Positions 17,966-30,001 of a stretch of 64,000 nucleotides of DNA are shown one piece after another (within the stretch, counting starts at the first letter, position 1; each line of letters opens with the position of its first letter). Under the pieces are notes generated by a model that saw only the letters and a program-made list of their open reading frames with translations, was not told the origin of the DNA and did no database searches. The position numbers and the translations under genes are program-made. Source of the stretch: Rhodothermia bacterium (GTDB lineage Bacteria > Bacteroidota > Rhodothermia > Balneolales > Balneolaceae); contig JAUICM010000008.1 of NCBI GenBank assembly GCA_030427885.1, positions 62,001 to 126,000 on the forward strand, in the 5' to 3' direction.

Positions 17966-19480
17966 CTACTGTTTCCAGAAAGAAGGAGAGAAGATGATAA
18001 GAACAGTAATGACTTCCAGGCGACCAATCATCATTAGCATGATAAGAACCCATTTACCCACAAGGGGAAGAGCGGAAAAGGTATCCGTTGGCCCGAAGTC
18101 ACCCCAACCCGGACCGATATTTCCAAGCGCAGCTATACTGGCACCAATTGAAGACATTATATCATATCCGAATAAGCTTATGATAAATGCACCTGTTGCA
18201 AATATGGCCATATAAAGGATAAAGAAACTCAGAACCGTTCTCTGGATATTAACATCAATAGCCTGTTCACCTATACGAACAGGAAGTATTGCTTTCGGGT
18301 GAATGATCTGTTTGATCTCACGTCCGGTATTGCGGATAAGGATCATCCAGCGAATCATTTTAATTCCACCACCTGTAGAGCCCGCACAGCCTCCCGCAAA
18401 GAATAAGAGAAAGAGAAAGAAAGCTCCGAAGGAGTACCAGAGCTCGTAATCATCAGTACCGAAACCTGTAGTTGTTACGATAGATACTACCTGAAAAGCA
18501 CCGTACCTGAATGCGTTTACAATAGATTCACCATCAAAATACCAAAGTGAAAATGAAACACCCAGAATTCCAATAAGCGTGACCAAGGCATAGAATCGTG
18601 TTTCTCGATTTTGGAAAAACGAATGTTTATCACCCCTAAGAAGTCTGAAATGCATGGCAAAGTTAATTCCTGCCAAAAACATGAAGAAGGTAATTACCCA
18701 ATCGATGTAGGCAGAGTCAAATGCCTGAACGCTGGCATTTCGGGTTGAAAATCCTCCAGTTGCCAGGGTGGCAAAAGAGTGATTGAGCGCTTCAAACCAA
18801 TCCATTGCCGGATGGGCCCATAACAAAAGAAATTCTAATGCCGTGAAAGCAAGATATACCACCCATAGCAGTTTTGCGGTTTCCTGCACACGTGGGGTCA
18901 GTTTATCAGTTGTGGGTCCGGGCGATTCGGCCTGGAATAACTGCATGCCTCCAATACCTAAGAGGGGAAGAATAGCTAGTGAAAGCACAATAATACCCAT
19001 TCCACCAAGCCAGTGGGCCAGTGACCTCCAAAAAAGGAAACTTTTAGGTAGCTCCTCGATCATGGGGTTAAAAATACCGTTATGGCTTGTACCCCCCATT
19101 ATTGTTGATCCTGTGGTGGTAAGGCCACTCATTGTCTCAAAAACGGCATCGGTATAATTGGGGAGAACACCTGAGATCACAAAAGGCAGACCACCCACCA
19201 GGGAAAGTATTAGCCAGGTCAAACTTACAACCAGAAACCCCTCCCGGATACGGATCTCATATTGTGGTTTGAAGAAATACCATAGTGATCCTCCGCAAAC
19301 AAAAGCAATACCGGCAGAAATGAGGAATGCATGCCAGGTATTTTCACCATAGATCAAATCGATAACCACAGGCAGGAGAAGAGCAAATCCCATAAAGAAT
19401 ATGAAGGAACCGAGAATGCCTAAAACGATCAGGAAATCAATCTTAGGTCGGTTTAGAGAGCTAATGGGACTTTTTAACAT
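17966..19480 (-). CDS. trkH: Trk/Ktr potassium uptake membrane subunit TrkH
   Basis: A 504-residue K+ channel-like transporter subunit. It has four MPM repeats whose selectivity loops are seen as FETMSGLTTTGSTI near 114-127, SFATLATGGFSTRN, QVVSIVTTTGFGTDDY and a last GASIAALGNIGPGWG. These glycine-centred filters (TTGS, ATGGFS, TTGFGT, NIGPG) are the TrkH signature. It abuts trkA directly (no bases between trkA stop and trkH start), so the channel and its gating subunit are co-translated. The C-terminus ends ITVLIIFSPSFWK, the usual ending of the family. Confidence 0.96.
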   Translation of the reverse strand: MLKSPISSLNRPKIDFLIVLGILGSFIFFMGFALLLPVVIDLIYGENTWHAFLISAGIAFVCGGSLWYFFKPQYEIRIREGFLVVSLTWLILSLVGGLPFVISGVLPNYTDAVFETMSGLTTTGSTIMGGTSHNGIFNPMIEELPKSFLFWRSLAHWLGGMGIIVLSLAILPLLGIGGMQLFQAESPGPTTDKLTPRVQETAKLLWVVYLAFTALEFLLLWAHPAMDWFEALNHSFATLATGGFSTRNASVQAFDSAYIDWVITFFMFLAGINFAMHFRLLRGDKHSFFQNRETRFYALVTLIGILGVSFSLWYFDGESIVNAFRYGAFQVVSIVTTTGFGTDDYELWYSFGAFFLFLLFFAGGCAGSTGGGIKMIRWMILIRNTGREIKQIIHPKAILPVRIGEQAIDVNIQRTVLSFFILYMAIFATGAFIISLFGYDIMSSIGASIAALGNIGPGWGDFGPTDTFSALPLVGKWVLIMLMMIGRLEVITVLIIFSPSFWKQ

Positions 19481-20833
19481 TTATTGAAAGAGTAGAGTTA
19501 CCTTATCAACGGCTTCAGGCATGCAAAATACCATGACCCTGTCGTTAGGCTTAATAACGGTTTTACCGGTAGCAATCTCAACATCTCCATTACATAAAAC
19601 TCCACCTATCACACAGCCATCAGGAAGTTTAAGCTTTTGAATTTCTTTATCGATGATCTTTGATTTATTAGATGCCTGAAGCTCGATAACCTCCGCTTTG
19701 ATCCCTCTGAGTTCAGTAACTGAGATCACACGACCTTTTCTTACGTACCGGTGAATTTCATTTGAAGCAGCTACTTTCTTATTTATAACCGCATCCAGCC
19801 CAATAGTTTGGCTTAATGGTATAAAATCAGGTTTAGATACCAGTGCTACCGTTTTCTTTACATCCAAATGCTTGGCCATGAGGCAGGAAATGATATTAGA
19901 TTCCTCATCATCAGTTACAGCGATAAAGGCATCCATTTCACTGATTCCTTCAGTAGCAAGAAGATCAGGATCAGTGGGATTCCCATGAAGGATCATGGCA
20001 TTTTTAAGTTCAATTGCCAGTTCTTCTGCAGTATCGTAATCAGGTTCTATCAGTTTAATTGACCAGTTTTTGCTTTGGTCATTACACAAGATCCGTGCTA
20101 TCATGGATCCGATAGCGGAACCACCAGCGATCATAACTCTGTTTATCTCAGTCTCTTTCTTACCGGTTGTAGCTACGATCTTAGGAATATCCTCGGTCTT
20201 TGCCAGGACAAAAATCTGATCAAAAGACTGCATTTTAACAGGCCCTTTTGGGATCAGGGTCAATCCGCGTCGGCCAATAGCAACTACACGGAAAGTGATA
20301 TCTGAGTACTCGGATGCATAGTCGATAAGGGATTTACCTATGAGCGGGGAGTTTCTTTCTAAACGGATCCCAATCAATTGCATTCTGTTTTCAGCGAGGT
20401 TGATCACGTCACTGGCAGCAGATCTTTTAAGAAGATGTGCGATCTCACGTGCTGCACTCAACTCAGGATGTATCATCACATCAATGCCGAGGTCAGAAGG
20501 GGTGAGAGGAGAGTCGGGATGAGAGAACTCATCACTGCGGACACGTGCGATCACCATTTTAGCTCCTAAGCGCTTACTCATCATGGCTGTGATGATATTC
20601 ACTTCATCGATACTGGTCACACAAATAATGATATCAGCGTCCGAAACACCTGCTTTTACAAGATCGGTAGCAGAGGTGGCGTTCCCTTCCAGGGTTAAAA
20701 CGTCGAGTGTCTCGGAAGCTTTGGAGAGGCAATCCTTTTCACGATCAAGTACAGTAACATCGTGCTTTTCTTTGGATAATACGCTTGCCAGATCATACCC
20801 GATTTCACCAGCACCTACAATAACAATCTTCAA
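19481..20833 (-). CDS. trkA: Trk potassium uptake regulatory subunit TrkA
   Basis: The cytoplasmic NAD(H)/nucleotide-binding subunit that gates TrkH. The 450 residues contain two RCK units: the first Rossmann motif is GAGEIG at 7-12 with the acidic end of strand 2 (VTVLDRE) near 28-34. A TrkA-C domain follows at about 145-215. The second Rossmann motif GGSAIG is near 237-242, and a last TrkA-C domain follows. The start codon is TTG; an upstream in-frame ATG is not available. It is the first gene of the trkA-trkH operon. Confidence 0.95.
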   Translation of the reverse strand: MKIVIVGAGEIGYDLASVLSKEKHDVTVLDREKDCLSKASETLDVLTLEGNATSATDLVKAGVSDADIIICVTSIDEVNIITAMMSKRLGAKMVIARVRSDEFSHPDSPLTPSDLGIDVMIHPELSAAREIAHLLKRSAASDVINLAENRMQLIGIRLERNSPLIGKSLIDYASEYSDITFRVVAIGRRGLTLIPKGPVKMQSFDQIFVLAKTEDIPKIVATTGKKETEINRVMIAGGSAIGSMIARILCNDQSKNWSIKLIEPDYDTAEELAIELKNAMILHGNPTDPDLLATEGISEMDAFIAVTDDEESNIISCLMAKHLDVKKTVALVSKPDFIPLSQTIGLDAVINKKVAASNEIHRYVRKGRVISVTELRGIKAEVIELQASNKSKIIDKEIQKLKLPDGCVIGGVLCNGDVEIATGKTVIKPNDRVMVFCMPEAVDKVTLLFQ

Positions 20834-20926
20834 ATGAAAAGATATTCGTGAGTGATTAAATATTCACCAAAACTACCACCTTTTTGAGTGAAAAGAAAGA
20901 AGCAGACATCTTACTGAAACACCTGC

Positions 20927-23900
20927 TTATTGAGTATTCACCGTAATATTTGTACTTATAGGGGTTGATTGAGCCACTTTGAGATCTTTGATCTCAACAG
21001 TGAAATTATTGGTTCCTTTAACAAGATTTGTTTGAAGTTGTAAACCTTTGCCAATGATTTGTCCGTTCTGTTTCCAGGTTATTTCGATTTGCATCGGGTC
21101 CCGGTTTATGGAAGGTGCTTTAAGAATGGTAGTTGGATTTGAAGGATTCCATTGCAGTACATATGGGCTAATATCTTCGGTAAACTTAAGCGGCTCAATC
21201 ACTTCAATACTGTATTTCGATTCACTTAATACTATGCCTCTTGGAATCCAGCCTAATGTAAACGTAGAAGTCCCTGCTCTTTCAGCTGACCATTGATCCA
21301 CTGTAGAACCATTCACTACAAACTTCCAAGGACCGTTTATCTTGAGGTCACTTATGGTTATAACGCCACCTGAATTTAATCTTGCAGGATAAACCGGGTT
21401 GATCTCTGGTATTTTAACCGGATTAACGCGGTAAATTGTAGAATCTATGGAATTAGGCAGTCCACGACCATCATTCTGTACCAAAGTGATCATATATGGG
21501 CGAGCTTCATTTGCGGTAAATTCAGGAGATGACACGACCTTTCCATCCAGTTTCCAAACCGAGGTGACAGTATCTCCATCTTTGTCTTTGGTTACTGAAG
21601 TAGAAACAGAGACATCTTCATTTTGATATACAATCTCAGGACCGACTATTACAGGCTTTGGAGCACTGTTTGCAAAAAATGAACGCTCCATTGCTGCATG
21701 ATTATTGGTGGCAGGGGAGTTGTCTTTCACCTCAACGCGAACAGTATGATTACCAGGGGTGATCGTTTTAATGATCTCTGTGGCATTAGAGCTTATCTCT
21801 TTGCCATCCATGAACCACCTGAATTGCTTTATGTACCCATCAGGATCGTTACTGCTGAGGGCATCAAGTTTAAGATCACCTCCGGCAGGTATATTCTTCG
21901 GAAGCTGCCATACTATGACGGGAGAAGCATTCACTTTTATGATCTTTGTAAGGCTGACCGTATTACAATCGGTGTCGGTATTGGTTTCTAAAGTAACCGT
22001 TACAAAATATTCTCCCGGTTCAGTAAATGTATGTTCTGTTATCATTCCTGATAATTCCTCGGAACTTGATTCAGTATCAATGGTCCATTTAGCTGACTTA
22101 AAGCCACCTGCGACGCTGGATGCAGAAGCGTCAAGTGAGACTGGCTCACCAGGTGCAATTGAAGAAGGCAGTTCGAATTCAGCTACAGGACCTTCGATAA
22201 CACGAACTTTCCCGGTTACCTGGCTTACATTACTACATTGGCCAGATCCGGAACCTTCCACGGTAAGTGATACGGTATATTCACCCGGTTCAGTAAAAAT
22301 ATGTCGGTATTTACCGCCTGTGGCTGAATTACCGTCACCGAAATCCCAGCTGAAAGAGGGGAGAGAACCGGAAGGATCAGTACTGGATGTACCATCAAAA
22401 TCCAGAGAAGAATTTACACAGATAGTGGTATCAGAGATATTGAATTTGGCCACCGGTGAGCCCTCTATGATAACCGGGATCCGGGCTACAGAATTCTCCC
22501 CGGAGAATCCGTCATCCAGAGTTAGTTTTGCTTCATAAACGCCGGGAACCTGGTAGCTGTATGAAGGGTTTGCCTCTTCGGAATTTTCTCCATTGCCAAA
22601 GTCCCACTGTACTTTGAATGCATCTCCATCAGGATCATAGCTTTGTGAGCTGTTGAATAAAACAGTTTGCCCCGTGCAGGAAGTAATCAATGAATCTACC
22701 ACTGCATGAACAGGACGATTGATCAGAACACGGATAGATTCTGTATTTACACTGTTGGCGAGTCCAAGGCCATCATTCAGGGTTAATCCAACAATATGCA
22801 CTCCGGGCTCAGGTGCTGCCCAGCTGAAACTGGATTCATATCTTTTAGAACCGTCGGGGAGTGTCCATTCAAAACTAACCGGATTGTCATCCAGATCGTA
22901 ACTTTCAGAGGCATCCAGTCTGACATCAATAGAATTTGAACGAACTATCGATTCAGTTACGATATAAGGCTGGTGATTCACATTAACTGAACCTTCAACA
23001 GAAGTAGATGAGTTATTTAATCCATCGTTATCGGTTACCGTAAGGGTAAAGTTTTTAAGTCCACCATCTTCAAATACTTTATCAATTGAAGCACCAGTAG
23101 CTGTGCTACCATCCTCAAATTCCCATTCGTATGAAGTTATTGTTCCATCGGGGTCATAAGATTCGTTTGCGATGAATCGAATATTCTCTCCGGGAACGAG
23201 CTCAACAGGTTCCGTTCTCCAAAGGCCAACAGGTGGAGTATTTACTCTGATCTGTTTACTGGAATGTCCTACAGCTTCTTCAAAGCCAGAGTCATCATTT
23301 ACAGCCAGGGTGAGTGTATGCAGTCCTGGGGTATCAAGGGAGATAGTATTTGTTACTCCTTCACCAGCAGGCATATCGTTAGTAAACCATGCGTACCTGG
23401 TTATCTTACCTTCATTATCTGAACTTTGAGACCCATCAACAGTGAAGGATTCACCAGGAGCTACCACTTCTGGTGTATTGAAACTTGCTACAGGGAAGCT
23501 GTTCACTACAATCACATGCTCGGAGCTTTGAACACTGTTTGCGAGAGCAAAGCCATCATCTACTGTTAATTTAACTGTATATGATCCGGTGGATTGATAT
23601 TGGTGGTTTACATTTGGGCCTGTGGCTGAATTACCATCCCCGAAATCCCAAACAAAAGACTTTAGTTCAGTTTCAGCATCAAGGCTATTAGAAGCTGAGA
23701 ATTCAACATTTGAGCTTGAAGTCATTGGTACTGCCGTAATAACCGGACTTGGTGCTGCATTTACATGAATCTTCCTTGAAAGACTTTGAACCGAGTTTGT
23801 AGTACCTCGCTGATCGTCAACGGTCAGCATCACTTCATAGTCGCCAGCTTCGTCTAGTGAAAGGGGATAGTTTGGTGAATTTGAAACTTCATTATCATTT

Positions 23901-25648
23901 ACCGACCAGCTGTATAGCAGTTCATCGTTGTTTTCATCTGATGAGGAGTCGGCATTTAAAGTAAAAATATCACCCGGTGCAACGATATCCGGAATTGTGA
24001 ATATGGGGATAGGAGCGGCATTTATTTCGTACGTCTTATTCACAGTGAATTCTGAGTTATTAGCTCCTGAGCTGTCATTCACAGCAAGAGCGATATCATA
24101 AAACCCGGCTTTTTCATGTGATACCACTACAGAGTCAGATGAAACTTTGCTTCGTTCTCCATTTACTGTCCAGAAGTAACTAAGATTATCATTATCAGAA
24201 TCCGATTGGTTAACAACCCTGAATGTGATGTCCTCATTGGTACCGGAAACTTCTGGAAATTGAATTTCAGCATAGGGCTGAGTATTCACCCGGATCAGTT
24301 GCTGACGCTGAGCAACACTACAACGAATGGAATTTCCTCCATCAGAAATCTGAACAGAAACATTGTACACACCGGATACCGTGCTCATAAATGTAAATGT
24401 AGGGCCGGTTTCACCGCGTCTGGTATTATTAACTAACCAGGTATAACGGAGTTCCTTTCCTTCCATGTCATAGGATTGGGAAGCATCAAATACGATACTT
24501 TCGGAAGGGGATATGATCAGTTTTGGTACTTCAAGTTTTGCAATAGGAGGAGTATTTACGAAAACATCATACTTGTAGTTCCAGAACCGGGGAAAATAAG
24601 CTCCTTCATTCGGAATAAGAATATCAACAGGAACCGTACCCCTGGACTTAAAGCTTATTGATGGCGAAGCACCTGAACCTATCTGAGTGTTTGAAGCAAT
24701 CCACTTTGAATTTCTCAGATCCTCTGGGTGGAATGAAGTGCCTGTTAATTCGAAATTCTTATCAGTACATCTTGATGCATCAGTCATACTAATATTGATC
24801 GCAGGTTTTTGATAGTCCGGGATCACCAACGGCTCAAATTCCCATAAAACTGGTTTATCTGTACCAAAAACAGTTAACGTATTCAGCCAGTCTTTGGAGC
24901 CTTTGATCTGGATTCCCCATGTATTTTCAGTACCAAATTTCTGTGGTGGTATAGAAGCACCTGAAGCCGCATATTCCTCGCCAAATGAATCGATCTTGGA
25001 AGTTTCTGAGTCTTCAGCACCATTAACAGTCAGATCAGGGTTGAAAGTATTGTCAGACAGAATATGAGGTTTTATCTGAAAACGATTGGTGGTTCTGGAA
25101 CGATACAGACCAATCGACAAGTCTATTGCAATGATCTTCCAATCCTTTCCATTAAGGATATCACCCCGGTCGTTAACAACACGAAAGTTAAAGCTATTGA
25201 TATCATCGCCATCATCGGTAGTAACACGTATGATATACCCATTTCCGTTGCCCTGCACATCAGCCAGAGGTACCCATCGATTTTTGAACCGTTCTTCATT
25301 TTTCGCAGTTAGTGCATTTAATTCTACCGGTGCGGAGGACTTGCTATCCAGTGAATTTCCATTCACCTGATAAATATCGTCAAAGTTATAAAGCCTGAAT
25401 GTGGTCGTTGTAATAGTCGAATCCTTGGTTACAAGGTCAACAGCTCCGCCAAGTCCTGCATCATAGATCTGGAGGCTTCCATTCCCTGACTGCTCTGCAG
25501 GTTTTATCCAGATATCATATTGGTGGCGGTTATCACCGCTTTGTATGTATACACTTTTACCCGAAATGGACATGTAAACTTCCTGGGCAAATCCCGAAAA
25601 ACTCATCAGGGAGAGAAATAAAGCGATCTGTACCGTTTTCTTAATCAT
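20927..25648 (-). CDS. Giant secreted protein with 12 PKD-like repeats
   Basis: A 1573-residue exported protein (signal peptide 1-21, SGFAQ). Residues 22-375 are a beta-rich region with no family I recognise. From about 380 to 1410 I count 12 tandem modules of 85-90 residues, each starting N-x-x-P and ending in a D-x-x-G...N(S/A)V strand; modules 4, 8 and 9 carry the canonical PKD core WDFGDGNSATG or a close variant, while others are K319/PKD-like variants with WxxN or WxLPDG. The last 160 residues form a different beta domain. No LPxTG, T9SS-type C-terminal domain or membrane anchor is evident. It is the third gene of the kinase-FecR-PKD operon; its start overlaps the FecR gene by 8 bp. Probably extracellular or periplasmic, for adhesion or ligand binding. 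Confidence 0.88.
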   Translation of the reverse strand: MIKKTVQIALFLSLMSFSGFAQEVYMSISGKSVYIQSGDNRHQYDIWIKPAEQSGNGSLQIYDAGLGGAVDLVTKDSTITTTTFRLYNFDDIYQVNGNSLDSKSSAPVELNALTAKNEERFKNRWVPLADVQGNGNGYIIRVTTDDGDDINSFNFRVVNDRGDILNGKDWKIIAIDLSIGLYRSRTTNRFQIKPHILSDNTFNPDLTVNGAEDSETSKIDSFGEEYAASGASIPPQKFGTENTWGIQIKGSKDWLNTLTVFGTDKPVLWEFEPLVIPDYQKPAINISMTDASRCTDKNFELTGTSFHPEDLRNSKWIASNTQIGSGASPSISFKSRGTVPVDILIPNEGAYFPRFWNYKYDVFVNTPPIAKLEVPKLIISPSESIVFDASQSYDMEGKELRYTWLVNNTRRGETGPTFTFMSTVSGVYNVSVQISDGGNSIRCSVAQRQQLIRVNTQPYAEIQFPEVSGTNEDITFRVVNQSDSDNDNLSYFWTVNGERSKVSSDSVVVSHEKAGFYDIALAVNDSSGANNSEFTVNKTYEINAAPIPIFTIPDIVAPGDIFTLNADSSSDENNDELLYSWSVNDNEVSNSPNYPLSLDEAGDYEVMLTVDDQRGTTNSVQSLSRKIHVNAAPSPVITAVPMTSSSNVEFSASNSLDAETELKSFVWDFGDGNSATGPNVNHQYQSTGSYTVKLTVDDGFALANSVQSSEHVIVVNSFPVASFNTPEVVAPGESFTVDGSQSSDNEGKITRYAWFTNDMPAGEGVTNTISLDTPGLHTLTLAVNDDSGFEEAVGHSSKQIRVNTPPVGLWRTEPVELVPGENIRFIANESYDPDGTITSYEWEFEDGSTATGASIDKVFEDGGLKNFTLTVTDNDGLNNSSTSVEGSVNVNHQPYIVTESIVRSNSIDVRLDASESYDLDDNPVSFEWTLPDGSKRYESSFSWAAPEPGVHIVGLTLNDGLGLANSVNTESIRVLINRPVHAVVDSLITSCTGQTVLFNSSQSYDPDGDAFKVQWDFGNGENSEEANPSYSYQVPGVYEAKLTLDDGFSGENSVARIPVIIEGSPVAKFNISDTTICVNSSLDFDGTSSTDPSGSLPSFSWDFGDGNSATGGKYRHIFTEPGEYTVSLTVEGSGSGQCSNVSQVTGKVRVIEGPVAEFELPSSIAPGEPVSLDASASSVAGGFKSAKWTIDTESSSEELSGMITEHTFTEPGEYFVTVTLETNTDTDCNTVSLTKIIKVNASPVIVWQLPKNIPAGGDLKLDALSSNDPDGYIKQFRWFMDGKEISSNATEIIKTITPGNHTVRVEVKDNSPATNNHAAMERSFFANSAPKPVIVGPEIVYQNEDVSVSTSVTKDKDGDTVTSVWKLDGKVVSSPEFTANEARPYMITLVQNDGRGLPNSIDSTIYRVNPVKIPEINPVYPARLNSGGVITISDLKINGPWKFVVNGSTVDQWSAERAGTSTFTLGWIPRGIVLSESKYSIEVIEPLKFTEDISPYVLQWNPSNPTTILKAPSINRDPMQIEITWKQNGQIIGKGLQLQTNLVKGTNNFTVEIKDLKVAQSTPISTNITVNTQ

Positions 25649-27428
25649 GATTTCTCTGGTTTTCTTCGACAGTGAATGATTTTGTTATGTAGGTTATTCC
25701 CGTACGTGCATTTTTAAATGAAACTTCGAGGGATCCCGGTTTTAAATTTGTGGTGATTCCCCATCTTCCTTTAGAATCAGTGAATATCTTACGCTCAGTT
25801 CCGGCATTCAGTACCACGACTTCCAATTCCGGATACGCCTTAGATGCCAATGTAACCGTAGGGCTGTTCAATTTTATCGGATCAGAACCTGAAGCACCGG
25901 TAAGGTTGAATTTGAATAAAACATCGTCAGTCAATTTAACAAGGCGTATACTCTTACTGGTTTTGTTACCCGAAGCATCGACGGCAACAATTTCCAGATC
26001 CTGGTCAGTGTCAATATCCTTCAATACATGTGAGAACTTGCCTGAAAGTTGAACTGTAACAGATTTAGCGTTGATAGTAAGCCGGGTATCTGGTTCACTT
26101 ACTCCTGTTATCTGATAATCTGTATTCAGTGTAAACAGGATATTACCGTTCGATCCATCCACAAACACCGGGGGAGGCTGATTATCAATATTTCTGATGA
26201 TTCGTGTTGGCTCAGAGAAAGGACCTCTCAGGCCAAGACTATCGATGGCCAGAACACGAACATAAGTGGTGCCCAGCGCCAGATCATCCAGATTAACTGA
26301 ATTCGAGGTAAGTGAAAGTTCTTCAATATCAGCATCAAAAGAAGGAGAAGAGCTTATCTGCGCCCGATAGCTTACAGCTCTGTCGACATCGCCAAAGGCG
26401 TAAACAATATCTTGCCGGTAGATGATCGTATCCCTGCTTTCCCAAACCAGATCTGGTGCTTCAAGCAATTTGATAGGAGCACTAGGTGCACGGCCTTCTT
26501 CTACAATAGTTCCTTCATTTTTTTTAATGGTGATGGTCACATCATTTGCACTGATATTTGCAATACCATCGTAATTAGTAAGCTTTACAGTAGTATTGCC
26601 GTCCGATTCGGCATAAAAATTTTGCGTTTTAAGCTCTGATGTGGAAGCCCCGGCATTTAGTATGTAATTGCTTTTCTCTTTGGCTGCTGCTGATAATTTA
26701 GCAAGTAAACCTCCTGAGACAAGACTGATCTCAGTATCAGAGCTCTGGCTGAGTTTATCAATGCGGGATTTTCTAATCACGGCTACCGTATTGGGATCAA
26801 CCATCACATAACTACCATCTGTAAAAGCGAGGTTTGCAAAACTTTCCTCTAAAGTTCTTACCCCATCAGCTTCTTTAAAAAGATCCCCCACAAAAGCATC
26901 ATTCCAATCTCCAAGCAGTCCCAGACGTTTATCAACAGTACCTACTTTTTTTGCTAATTGAGCCTGAACCTGAACCAGTCTGTTCGCCATGAGAGTGGAA
27001 TCCATCTCATCTACGGCAGGTTCGATCTTTGAGCCTATGTTCAAAACTTCCTCTAATTGCCCTTCCTGTATCCTTACTACATAATCAACGAGAAGGGTAT
27101 TAACCCGTTCAAGTGGTTTTTTTGCAAATATGGTAGCACCAGATGTAATTAGCTTTTTTACCCGATTCTGTTGCTCCATTACTTTTGCCGTAGTAGTAGC
27201 AAGCGCCTGCAGTTGAATGAAGTCAGAGGAGGAGAGGGTAAAAGTATTGTTTGGGATGTCGTGGTCTGCAATACTGATCAGTAAAGGCCAGTTGAGCGTG
27301 TTCCCTGTATACCTCAACGCCATCTGCTGTAATTCTGATGATTGAAAAGTCAGATCATCAGACTGGGCATAGGTTACGCTGGAATTTGTTGCAAGTCCTA
27401 ATAAAATTAGTAAGATGAATCTTTTCAT
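25641..27428 (-). CDS. Secreted FecR-domain protein with FnIII/Ig-like domains
   Basis: A 595-residue exported protein (signal peptide 1-22, VTYAQ). An N-terminal helical part (about 60-180) contains an extended heptad-like stretch. A FecR-type domain follows near 188-310: GVRTLEESFANLAFTDGSYV is the usual V-x-T-x-x-x-S-x-x-L-x-F-x-D-G-S pattern. An FnIII-like module (about 325-412) and two Ig-like beta modules (about 415-590) follow. No sigma/anti-sigma partner or transmembrane helix is present, so this is the structural FecR fold rather than a classical FecR regulator. It overlaps the kinase stop by 4 bp and the PKD gene start by 8 bp, so all three products are made together. Confidence 0.82.
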   Translation of the reverse strand: MKRFILLILLGLATNSSVTYAQSDDLTFQSSELQQMALRYTGNTLNWPLLISIADHDIPNNTFTLSSSDFIQLQALATTTAKVMEQQNRVKKLITSGATIFAKKPLERVNTLLVDYVVRIQEGQLEEVLNIGSKIEPAVDEMDSTLMANRLVQVQAQLAKKVGTVDKRLGLLGDWNDAFVGDLFKEADGVRTLEESFANLAFTDGSYVMVDPNTVAVIRKSRIDKLSQSSDTEISLVSGGLLAKLSAAAKEKSNYILNAGASTSELKTQNFYAESDGNTTVKLTNYDGIANISANDVTITIKKNEGTIVEEGRAPSAPIKLLEAPDLVWESRDTIIYRQDIVYAFGDVDRAVSYRAQISSSPSFDADIEELSLTSNSVNLDDLALGTTYVRVLAIDSLGLRGPFSEPTRIIRNIDNQPPPVFVDGSNGNILFTLNTDYQITGVSEPDTRLTINAKSVTVQLSGKFSHVLKDIDTDQDLEIVAVDASGNKTSKSIRLVKLTDDVLFKFNLTGASGSDPIKLNSPTVTLASKAYPELEVVVLNAGTERKIFTDSKGRWGITTNLKPGSLEVSFKNARTGITYITKSFTVEENQRNHD

Positions 27429-29569
27429 TTCGTATTCGTTGTACCCTTGTCTGGCAGTGTGATCGTAAACCTGCTACCGATCTCATCACCTGATTCAAGC
27501 AATATTTCCCCGTGATGTTTATGGATTATCTCTTTTACATAGGAGAGACCAAGTCCTGTACCTTTTTCTTTAGCGGATTTAATATTAGAACGTACCCGAT
27601 AAAACTTTTCAAACACTTTCTTCTGGTCTTCAATGCTAATTCCGTAGCCATGATCTGTAACACTGAGCTCAACATTTCCAGACTTCTGTTCGAGCTGAAT
27701 TTCAATAATTCGATTCGGGTCACCATATTTAACGGCATTACTTATAAGGTTTTGTACCGCATCAAAAAGTAATTCCTTGCTACCCGAAACGATAAAATCT
27801 GTACCTTTAGCACTGATATTGATTTTTAAATTCTTTTCCGATAGCAGGGCATTTGAAATGCTTTTTACCTCATTGACCAATTTAAACAGATCCACATCTT
27901 TGAACTCTACCGGAATGCGGCCATACTCAAGGCGTTGAACATCCAGAAAACGATTTACAAGATCATTCATTCGCTCACCTGACAAATAGATCTCTTTCAG
28001 CAATTCGTTGGCTTCTTCGGGGTCAAGCTCAGAATTATCCAGCATAAGTTTTGATAGTCCAACAACCCCTGTGATCGGGTTTTTAAGCTCATGGACGATA
28101 ATATTGATCATGTCAGTACGCTGCATGTCAACCAGACGATCGCGAGTCATATCGTGTAATACGATCAATGCTCCTTGCGAATGCCCGGTTTCATCCTCAA
28201 AAGCCACAAACTGATAATCGTAAAAGTAAGTGGTTTCTTCGTTTACAAAATGAGCAAGCTCTGCACGGTCGATCCTGATAGTATATGGATTAGGATAATG
28301 TACGTTCTGAGTGGTTTTTGAAAGTTTAAGTTTAGGATTGTTGAGAAGCTCTTTGAAAATAGTGTCTTTCGGATTCTGTCCAAATGCCTCAATAAATTCC
28401 ACGAATTGGTTATTAGCGAACCGGAATTTTCCATTGTTATCCAGGATACCAATAAGATCCTCGGTATAGGTCATCATATACCGGTTTTTCCACTCTTCCA
28501 GAATGATCTTCTCCACGTTGATCTTTTGATAACGGAGTAAAGTGATCCTGATATTCTCAAGAGTCTCTCTCATAAGGCCAAATTCCGGCAATTCCACTTC
28601 CCTGATCCGGTGATCAAAATTGAGTTTACTGATATGCTCAACATCATCCAGGATCTGCTCAATTGGTTTATTGACCCGGGCACTTACATACCAGCTGAAC
28701 AGAACCATTGTGAAGAGGATGCCTAATCCGGATATGAGCGAGAATAAGATAAGATTATGAACAGGCTGCAGAATGTAGGATTCCTCAACAGCAATCACAT
28801 GCCAGTAGGGTATACTTTCAAAGCGGGAGGACATGATAAACCAGTCGATGCCATTCAGTTCAGTTACAACCTCGTCAGAAAAACTGGCATTGCCAACCAG
28901 TTCCGCAGGGAAAGTAAGATCGGAGTCAGATATCAGGTTAATTCCGAGGTCGCTCACAATATTCGTTTCGTACACTCCTGCACCTAAGGGGATATCAATG
29001 AGTTCACGGGTGATCCGCTTAGCATCGAAATATAGATTAAGAGTGAAGATCAGCTGAATAGGTTCTCCTGCTCCATCAAAGGTATCGATCTGAATGGAGC
29101 GTTGAGTAATGAAGAAATCAACTGCTTGAGAAGTATCAGGTATCCAGACCGTATTGATGCGGGGGTCTAACCGGGAAGGATACCAGGTCTCGATCTGCTC
29201 TGGAAACTGGATATCCTGGAACACAGTACGGGTAAAGTCGATCAATTCATCAGATCCCGGTTCAGTGATGGTTATTCTGACCAAACCCGGAGTGTAATTT
29301 ATCGCCCTGCGCGCAATGTTTTCTGTTTCTCCGGGTTCTGTTCGTATGTCTTCCGCCAGAATGGTGGTCGTATTTTGCCAGTTGCTGATGCTCAGGTCAG
29401 CTCTGCGAAGCGAATACTCCTGCAATTGTGATACGATTGTTGTTCGCTCGCGTATGATCGCCTCTTTATACTTAGGGCGTACAAATACATAGATGAGTGC
29501 GAAAGCAACAACAATCAAAAGCGAAGTGATCGCAAAAATCCGGTTTCTAAGAGTTAAATTTTTGTACAT
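27425..29569 (-). CDS. Sensor histidine kinase with extracytoplasmic Cache-like domain
   Basis: A 714-residue membrane kinase. I start at the ATG giving MYKNLTLRNRIF; a TTG 8 codons upstream (29593) is an alternative. Helix 1 is at about 10-30, a 240-residue periplasmic sensor that looks double-Cache-like follows, helix 2 is at 272-296, and HAMP (297-345) and PAS (about 365-480, DLIGILDNNGKFRFAN) domains come next. The H-box VHELKNP has phospho-acceptor His493; the ATPase has N-box DAVQNLISNAVKYG, G1 DHGYGIS and G2 GTGLGLS near 670. No response regulator is encoded next to it. As first gene of the operon with the FecR and PKD proteins, it may sense or control that surface assembly. Confidence 0.9.
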   Translation of the reverse strand: MYKNLTLRNRIFAITSLLIVVAFALIYVFVRPKYKEAIIRERTTIVSQLQEYSLRRADLSISNWQNTTTILAEDIRTEPGETENIARRAINYTPGLVRITITEPGSDELIDFTRTVFQDIQFPEQIETWYPSRLDPRINTVWIPDTSQAVDFFITQRSIQIDTFDGAGEPIQLIFTLNLYFDAKRITRELIDIPLGAGVYETNIVSDLGINLISDSDLTFPAELVGNASFSDEVVTELNGIDWFIMSSRFESIPYWHVIAVEESYILQPVHNLILFSLISGLGILFTMVLFSWYVSARVNKPIEQILDDVEHISKLNFDHRIREVELPEFGLMRETLENIRITLLRYQKINVEKIILEEWKNRYMMTYTEDLIGILDNNGKFRFANNQFVEFIEAFGQNPKDTIFKELLNNPKLKLSKTTQNVHYPNPYTIRIDRAELAHFVNEETTYFYDYQFVAFEDETGHSQGALIVLHDMTRDRLVDMQRTDMINIIVHELKNPITGVVGLSKLMLDNSELDPEEANELLKEIYLSGERMNDLVNRFLDVQRLEYGRIPVEFKDVDLFKLVNEVKSISNALLSEKNLKINISAKGTDFIVSGSKELLFDAVQNLISNAVKYGDPNRIIEIQLEQKSGNVELSVTDHGYGISIEDQKKVFEKFYRVRSNIKSAKEKGTGLGLSYVKEIIHKHHGEILLESGDEIGSRFTITLPDKGTTNTK

Positions 29570-29662
29570 GATACCATTTTGCCCAAAGTTCAATTTATCC
29601 CTGATTAATTGCGATTAGAAACCTCTTATATTCACATTTCAATATTGTCCCGTGGATTTAGC

Positions 29663-29690
29663 TTAACAATTGCTTAACAATGATTTAACG
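29663..29690. promoter_or_regulatory. Three 11-bp-spaced TTAACA direct repeats (putative operator)
   Basis: TTAACA occurs at 29663-29668 and 29674-29679, and TTAACG at 29685-29690, all in the same orientation with an exact 11-bp period. Direct hexamer repeats with 11-bp spacing are the known binding pattern of PhoB/PhoP/OmpR-family response regulators (TTAACA-type in Bacillus PhoP). The site lies in the shared upstream region of the histidine-kinase operon and the winged-helix gene. Confidence 0.55.
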
Positions 29691-29695
29691 TTTTG

Positions 29696-30001
29696 GTGAG
29701 CTACAAAAGAGAGATTAGTGCTCAAATTGCACAGGGATTAAATATGCTGATCGGAGACGATTTTAATAAGAAAGGAAAGAATATTCTTAAGGAGCTGGCG
29801 GAGCTTACAGGGAAGGATACTGAGGTTAAAATTCCAGTTCAGAAGCTAAATGAAGTATTTAATTACGAGCGGAACGAAATGAAAAACCTGCTCGAATATC
29901 TTGAATCGAAAGAATGTCTGAAGATTGCCACCATAGGTGGTCCGTTTCTGTATGGACATATTACAATCACAGATAAAGGAATTGCAAGAGCTTCAAAATA
30001 A
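29696..30001 (+). CDS. Small winged-helix-like protein
   Basis: A 101-residue hypothetical. The sequence reads as helix-helix-helix-wing: KNILKELAELTGKDTEVKIP, VQKLNEVFNYERNEMKNLLEYLES (a likely recognition helix), then KIATIGGPFLYGHITITDKGIARA, the typical wing ending of winged-helix proteins. The start is uncertain: TTG at 29693 and GTG at 29696 follow the repeat operator directly and have no ribosome-binding site, while the ATG at 29744 has AGGGA 6 nt upstream and would give 85 residues. It is divergent from the kinase operon, and a terminator follows at once. Whether it binds DNA or protein is unknown. Confidence 0.65.
   Translation: MSYKREISAQIAQGLNMLIGDDFNKKGKNILKELAELTGKDTEVKIPVQKLNEVFNYERNEMKNLLEYLESKECLKIATIGGPFLYGHITITDKGIARASK

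Follow-up and report, generated by a model that had tools for sequence, protein, structure and literature searches.

A candidate multi-part envelope receptor encoded by three linked genes of the Balneolales and their distant relatives

Why should the gene of a sensor kinase be joined by short overlaps to the genes of two large exported proteins? The question is raised by a locus of a Rhodothermia bacterium, found in a stretch of 64,000 nucleotides that we call the window; positions given without the label of another locus are counted from its first letter. The three genes are on the minus strand, and the coordinates of their open reading frames (ORFs) overlap by 4 bp (kinase and FecR genes) and by 8 bp (FecR and PKD genes):

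27425..29569, minus strand: sensor histidine kinase, 714 amino acids (ORF, Pfam, alignment, hydropathy, AlphaFold2)
25641..27428, minus strand: secreted FecR-domain protein, 595 amino acids (ORF, Pfam, alignments)
20927..25648, minus strand: secreted PKD-repeat protein, 1573 amino acids (ORF, Pfam, repeat comparison)

A preliminary description of the locus had given these coordinates, overlaps and gene identities, along with 12 PKD repeats in the last protein, and all of them are confirmed by the ORF check and by Pfam. It had also seen no response regulator nearby, which is borne out: the locus lacks the adjacent cognate regulator of a two-component operon, no response regulator gene lies in the 64-kb window, and the nearest receiver domain of the contig is about 42 kb away, in a genome with 52 receiver-domain matches. 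The answer that we propose, and to which we give somewhat better than even chances, is that the products of the three genes make up a single multi-part envelope receptor: since the genes are kept together in the same order across the phylum, they probably form one device through which the cell interior learns of the state of its envelope.

Linkage of the three genes and exchange of the receptor output

We searched 58 related genomes for each of the three genes separately, with thresholds of E < 1e-80 for a full-length FecR gene, E < 1e-70 for a full-length kinase gene and E < 1e-70 for the PKD protein. An identical set of 25 genomes holds full-length kinase, FecR and PKD genes, and the remaining 33 hold none of them, having generic kinase cores or short PKD matches only. 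The three genes are adjacent in 22 of the 25 named loci, the other 3 being cut by contig ends. Order and strand are invariant in 20 loci of the Balneolales, one of which, L049, has its contig end inside the PKD gene. Outer neighbours are mostly common in family f1 (alanine dehydrogenase, metalloprotease, trkA, trkH) and differ in families f2-f5, where the three genes stay. Because presence and absence are identical over the 58 genomes, and the order is kept in every untruncated locus of the Balneolales, the arrangement is strongly non-random. The preliminary description had proposed to look for this order in related genomes; the test is strongly passed, and the contrary outcome, an order that is not conserved, was not seen.

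The same order extends beyond the Balneolales. In a phylum-wide sample, all 13 strongly matching genomes of other groups have it (L088-L100), as do five further distant genomes (L173-L177), for a total of 18 more distant loci. In still deeper relatives, it is the receptor that changes. A receptor composed of HAMP, HisKA and HATPase domains precedes the FecR and PKD genes in L102, L103, the second copy of L104, L178 and L179, and Pfam detects dCache in those of L102, L103 and L104. In L105 and in the first copy of L104, the receptor before the two genes has a HAMP domain and a guanylate/adenylate cyclase output, with dCache detected in L104. The FecR protein of L106 adjoins a hybrid kinase that has two receivers and an Hpt domain.

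The output of the receptor thus varies between kinase and cyclase while the FecR and PKD proteins stay: the output is exchangeable, and these two proteins are not. This exchange is our main evidence for placing both proteins on the input side; they appear to give input to a Cache-type receptor whose output can be exchanged. Together with the phylum-wide linkage, the exchange makes the claim that the FecR and PKD proteins belong with the receptor a well supported one.

Some deep relatives also carry a regulator beside the kinase. In L103, L104, L169 and L178, the gene before that of the receptor is for a response regulator with a SpoIIE phosphatase; in L101, L171 and L179, the kinase is adjoined by a divergent regulator of NarL type. 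Other features were observed at single loci. L104 (1646-19900) is a tandem, with a response regulator-SpoIIE gene followed by a cyclase-FecR-PKD set and then by a kinase-FecR-PKD set. The gene of a BLUF blue-light sensor lies directly upstream of the kinase at L089:13006-13443, where Pfam confirms it, and at L097:10307-10786; two small proteins resembling receivers and a duplicated fragment of a kinase are also encoded at L089. At L177:784-12272, a complete dCache kinase-FecR-PKD cassette follows directly on the gene of a CHASE2 cyclase, and the two types of receptors are thus neighbours.

The three proteins

The main domains of the three proteins in the window, in the order in which they are discussed, are the following:

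28739..29473, minus strand: dCache periplasmic sensor domain of the kinase, residues 33-277 (AlphaFold2 and PDB fold matches)
26580..26861, minus strand: FecR domain, residues 190-283, better conserved than any other extracytoplasmic part of the cassette (Pfam, identity comparison)
27204..27350, minus strand: LysM-like segment of the FecR protein, residues 27-75, degenerate in the window protein (alignment with remote members)
21404..24553, minus strand: 12 PKD repeats in fixed register, residues 366-1415 (Pfam and position-wise repeat comparison)
24809..25585, minus strand: N-terminal beta-rich domain of the PKD protein, residues 22-280 (AlphaFold2, pLDDT 89.9)

The alignment of relatives favours the ATG at 29569 as the start of the kinase, over a longer ORF that begins with TTG. 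From there the protein runs through a first transmembrane helix (TM1, about 10-33), the periplasmic dCache domain (33-277), a second helix (TM2, about 270-297), a HAMP-like/PAS-like linker, and the HisKA and HATPase_c domains (Pfam E-values of 4e-15 and 2e-25). It has the phospho-acceptor histidine and the HATPase_c domain of a HisKA sensor histidine kinase, and both the motif H493-E-L-K-N-P and the ATP-binding motifs (N and G boxes) are invariant or nearly so in 21 kinase sequences. The sensor had been called Cache-like, and this is borne out by AlphaFold2, in models made as single chains: the model of residues 1-348 has a mean pLDDT of 85.7, and its residues 30-274 match many solved dCache domains of chemoreceptors and kinases, with Z of about 14-16 (at 3-4 Angstrom in most of the matches). 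Model, PDB matches and hydropathy agree on the features of a dCache receptor, a long N-terminal helix and two PAS-like subdomains between two transmembrane helices, and the fold of the modelled ectodomain is dCache. CHASE2 (PF05226) is absent among 25 of the 26 families listed for the 21 kinases, and from the Pfam matches of the window kinase. The ectodomain is the least conserved region of the kinase, with 19-24% identity outside family f1, against 41-45% for the catalytic core.

The second protein had been described as a FecR/FnIII/Ig protein. Its FecR domain stands, with a Pfam match over the cut-off (2.9e-6); its Ig match is below the cut-off, and yet 15-18 of 21 relatives show it again; Pfam gives FnIII weak support. 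The layout is a signal peptide, a degenerate LysM-like segment, a helical segment, the FecR domain and Ig-like domains. Both this protein and the PKD protein have N-terminal export signals, judged by eye and by hydropathy, and no transmembrane segment beyond them. Between families, and with other clades as well, the FecR domain keeps an identity of about 45%, on par with the kinase core. The N-terminal part is harder to read: Pfam finds no LysM match in the window protein, and a sequence search of the PDB with its N-terminal half returned nothing useful. Five of 42 members, all of them remote, have a clear LysM at the matching place (E of 6.6e-7 in L104), and two remote homologues have OmpA, another peptidoglycan-binding domain. 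The FecR protein is probably tied to peptidoglycan by its LysM-like part; we infer this, and say no more than probably, because the LysM signature is degenerate in the family of the window and its direct profile match is weak. Elsewhere in the genome, two FecR genes belong to classical loci with a sigma factor and a TonB receptor (L158, L159), and a third lies beside a CHASE2 cyclase (L160).

The third protein is a tandem array, with PKD_4 matching 12 stretches at 4e-152, and is about 1565-1629 amino acids long in most species. The comparison of its repeats with those of the orthologues is done position by position: 322 of 324 orthologous repeats have as their best match the window repeat at the same position, and 318 of 324 score higher with that repeat than with any of the other repeats in the protein to which they belong. 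Each repeat therefore has its own conserved identity, a pattern that a homogenised simple spacer would not give. For the N-terminal region, a fold search gave no convincing PDB match, nearly all matches being to the Ig part and all having Z < 8, which does not demonstrate a new fold; a PDB sequence search with the first 372 residues gave PKD/Ig matches only.

Where would this protein reside? A sorting domain of the type IX secretion system (T9SS; TIGR04183/PF18962) has no match on it, while the same genome encodes a protein with one (L159:1073-2782). This favours a periplasmic location, without proving it, and weakens the idea of adhesion that was raised in the preliminary description; a T9SS-secreted adhesin was rejected on the same ground, no such domain being found at the C-terminus. 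A related protein of 339 amino acids, at L168:9104-10123, has the PKD N-terminal domain and no full repeat array; its neighbours are a PorP/SprF-like gene and the genes of secreted proteins of great length.

Weighing the explanations

The receptor that we propose would be assembled as follows. The kinase would be its dCache receptor, seated in the inner membrane. The FecR protein would be exported to the periplasm and probably attached to peptidoglycan by its LysM-like N-terminus, and its conserved FecR domain would contact the ectodomain of the kinase or the PKD protein. The PKD protein would form a long rod, each repeat conserved in its own right, and lengthen the sensing complex across or along the envelope. 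If the envelope changes, or the FecR and PKD proteins hold a ligand, the dCache domain would be altered and with it the autophosphorylation of H493, and the signal would then go to a response regulator encoded elsewhere. Besides the linkage and the exchange of outputs, we count for this receptor the adjacent regulators of deep relatives, the LysM and OmpA domains of remote FecR members, the dCache fold, the kinase motifs, the identity of the repeats, and the agreement of the trees.

Several observations weigh against it. The last item adds little beyond linkage: trees of the kinase ectodomain and of FecR have 26 of 31 splits in common, and the kinase and FecR distances correlate with r 0.94, but plain vertical descent would give the same. 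No response regulator is linked to the cassette in the Balneolales; the NarL-type regulator was tried as the partner and rejected, since no relative of it in the Balneolales tracks the presence of the cassette. The match between the LysM-like segment of the window family and the clear LysM members is marginal, with a profile probability of 34%. Finally, the set is not always complete: L101 is without the PKD gene, L169 has receptor and PKD genes without FecR, and PKD-family genes occur without kinase and FecR in L161-L167, as second copies, and in L172, as the sole copy found (genome G313). Since such solitary genes exist, the PKD protein is separable, and can be kept without the receptor. The flanks of L172 resemble those of the complete cassette L176 (genome G642), which suggests that kinase and FecR were lost there and PKD retained; the second PKD-family gene of L161-L164 (about 1580 amino acids) lies in surroundings that are conserved among these four genomes, all of one family.

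The solitary PKD genes lead to the strongest rival, which we hold possible but unlikely: the kinase would sense alone, through a dCache domain that is complete in itself, and the FecR and PKD proteins would be a structure of the envelope or surface, an adhesin or a matrix scaffold, merely co-expressed with its regulator. PKD and Ig repeats are common in adhesins. However, a pair of genes that is kept behind either a kinase or a cyclase fits an input module better than an effector, and both the individual identity of the repeats and the missing T9SS sorting domain, in a genome that encodes one elsewhere, speak against such a structure.

A less probable alternative, to which we give little weight, takes up the initial idea of the preliminary description. 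Here a diffusible small ligand would bind to the dCache domain, brought to the kinase by the FecR and PKD proteins as helpers that bind solutes or polymers. The dCache domains among the fold matches do bind amino acids and other small molecules, and a poorly conserved ectodomain is what varying ligands would produce. But the helpers are more conserved than the ectodomain that they would serve, no solute- or carbohydrate-binding Pfam family is above cut-off in the FecR protein, and the PKD protein has matches to families of PKD and Ig type only.

Mere synteny, with three unrelated genes held together by slow rearrangement, is very improbable: in its favour are the mostly conserved outer neighbours of family f1, and it is already contradicted by the complete replacement of these neighbours around a constant set of three genes, in f2-f5 as well as across the wider phylum, and by the identical co-absence in 33 of 58 genomes. 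The reading of the FecR protein as an anti-sigma factor of classical FecI/FecR/FecA cell-surface signalling, with an incidental kinase, can be rejected almost outright on architecture and gene context, because it has the FecR domain in its favour and little else: no sigma factor or TonB receptor gene is found in the conserved unit, there is no transmembrane segment of an inner-membrane anti-sigma protein, a signal peptide replaces the cytoplasmic anti-sigma part, and the true FecI/FecR loci of the genome (L158 and L159, our positive controls) look quite different.

Known systems, neighbourhood of the genes and significance

The coupling of a kinase to exported proteins had been called unusual. 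This holds in part, since CHASE2 kinases and cyclases are already known as receptors paired with secreted FecR proteins (PMC5192318, PMC9239204). The BiofilmReg operon of Burkholderiales encodes a response regulator, a LysM-FecR protein (COG4254), a CHASE2 histidine kinase and a DUF4136 protein; its disruption by insertion in Burkholderia reportedly abolished biofilm formation, and periplasmic sensing by both the FecR protein and the kinase has been proposed (PMC5192318). Our cassette likewise has a histidine kinase with a periplasmic sensor and a secreted FecR protein, whose deep relatives have the same LysM-FecR architecture. It differs in its dCache sensor with two transmembrane helices, where BiofilmReg has CHASE2 with several, in the lack of a response regulator in the operon, and in its PKD protein. 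In Campylobacterota, a CHASE2 adenylate cyclase clusters with a FecR-domain outer membrane protein, a phosphodiesterase and a TPR protein (PMC9239204), and the genome of the window has a locus of this kind, L160:5244-12186, with a CHASE2 adenylate/guanylate cyclase, a FecR protein of 255 amino acids, a protein of 915 amino acids without Pfam match and a secreted-looking protein of 397. These are again conserved clusters of a transmembrane receptor and an exported FecR protein, but with a CHASE2 cyclase and no PKD giant, and the FecR protein of L160 lacks the long N-terminal and Ig parts of ours.

The window system may thus work like the CHASE2-FecR clusters, with its secreted FecR gene beside a receptor, and we count their linkage in favour of the proposed receptor, as an analogy (PMC5192318, PMC9239204; L160). 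It is not a member of them, because the test for CHASE2 was negative and the PKD protein is an addition. Fold and topology of the ectodomain are those of the dCache-HAMP sensor kinases and chemoreceptors of the Cache superfamily, from which the kinase is set apart by its lasting genetic partnership with two large secreted proteins. For the phylum-wide set of a dCache receptor, a FecR protein and a PKD protein of fixed register, we found no description in the open-access literature.

Around the three genes, pattern scans and comparisons of relatives give two more features:

20900..20928, minus strand: terminator-like hairpin ahead of trkA, at the PKD stop codon (pattern scan only)
29607..29627, minus strand: AAGAGGTTTCTAATCGCAATT, an element conserved upstream of the kinase, whose start is about 40-60 bp away (comparison of relatives)

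A second terminator-like hairpin, also a pattern match only, is at 30028-30001, upstream of the kinase region. The hairpins bracket the three genes, which are therefore plausibly on a single transcript, while trkA/trkH and the upstream metalloprotease appear to be separate units. The element AAGAGGTTTCTAATCGCAATT is a candidate promoter or regulator site; it has no convincing second copy in the genome, and a regulon scan with the promoter motif AAGATGATTCTAATCGCATTT returned the kinase promoter as top match in 4 of 4 genomes, and no convincing second gene. A small divergent ORF of 85 amino acids (29744-30001, plus strand), possibly a winged helix, is conserved in eight loci. Upstream of it, at 29661-29690, three repeats with a period of 11 bp (TTAACA-N5-TTAACA-N5-TTAACG, plus strand) resemble a PhoP/PhoB box; they were considered as an upstream element of the kinase and set aside, as they apparently go with the divergent ORF and are absent in relatives without it. 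On the other side, trkA and trkH (potassium uptake, 17966-20833) start 93 bp after the PKD gene and are kept in most loci of family f1 and not elsewhere; an osmotic link is possible.

Secreted FecR proteins are found repeatedly beside CHASE2 kinases and cyclases. The cassette is an independent case, with another receptor fold, a third partner and exchangeable outputs, and allows a direct test of whether the FecR domain, away from sigma factors, passes information from the periplasm on to membrane receptors; the swap from kinase to cyclase is a natural domain-exchange experiment. It is tempting, if doubtful, to go further and conjecture a phylum-wide and hitherto undescribed class of tripartite envelope receptors, in which a peptidoglycan-associated FecR protein and a PKD rod of fixed length would report the geometry or tension of the envelope to a dCache receptor whose output is freely kinase or cyclase. 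If the FecR domain does carry such information, a set of uncharacterised receptors across the phylum would gain a common input mechanism.

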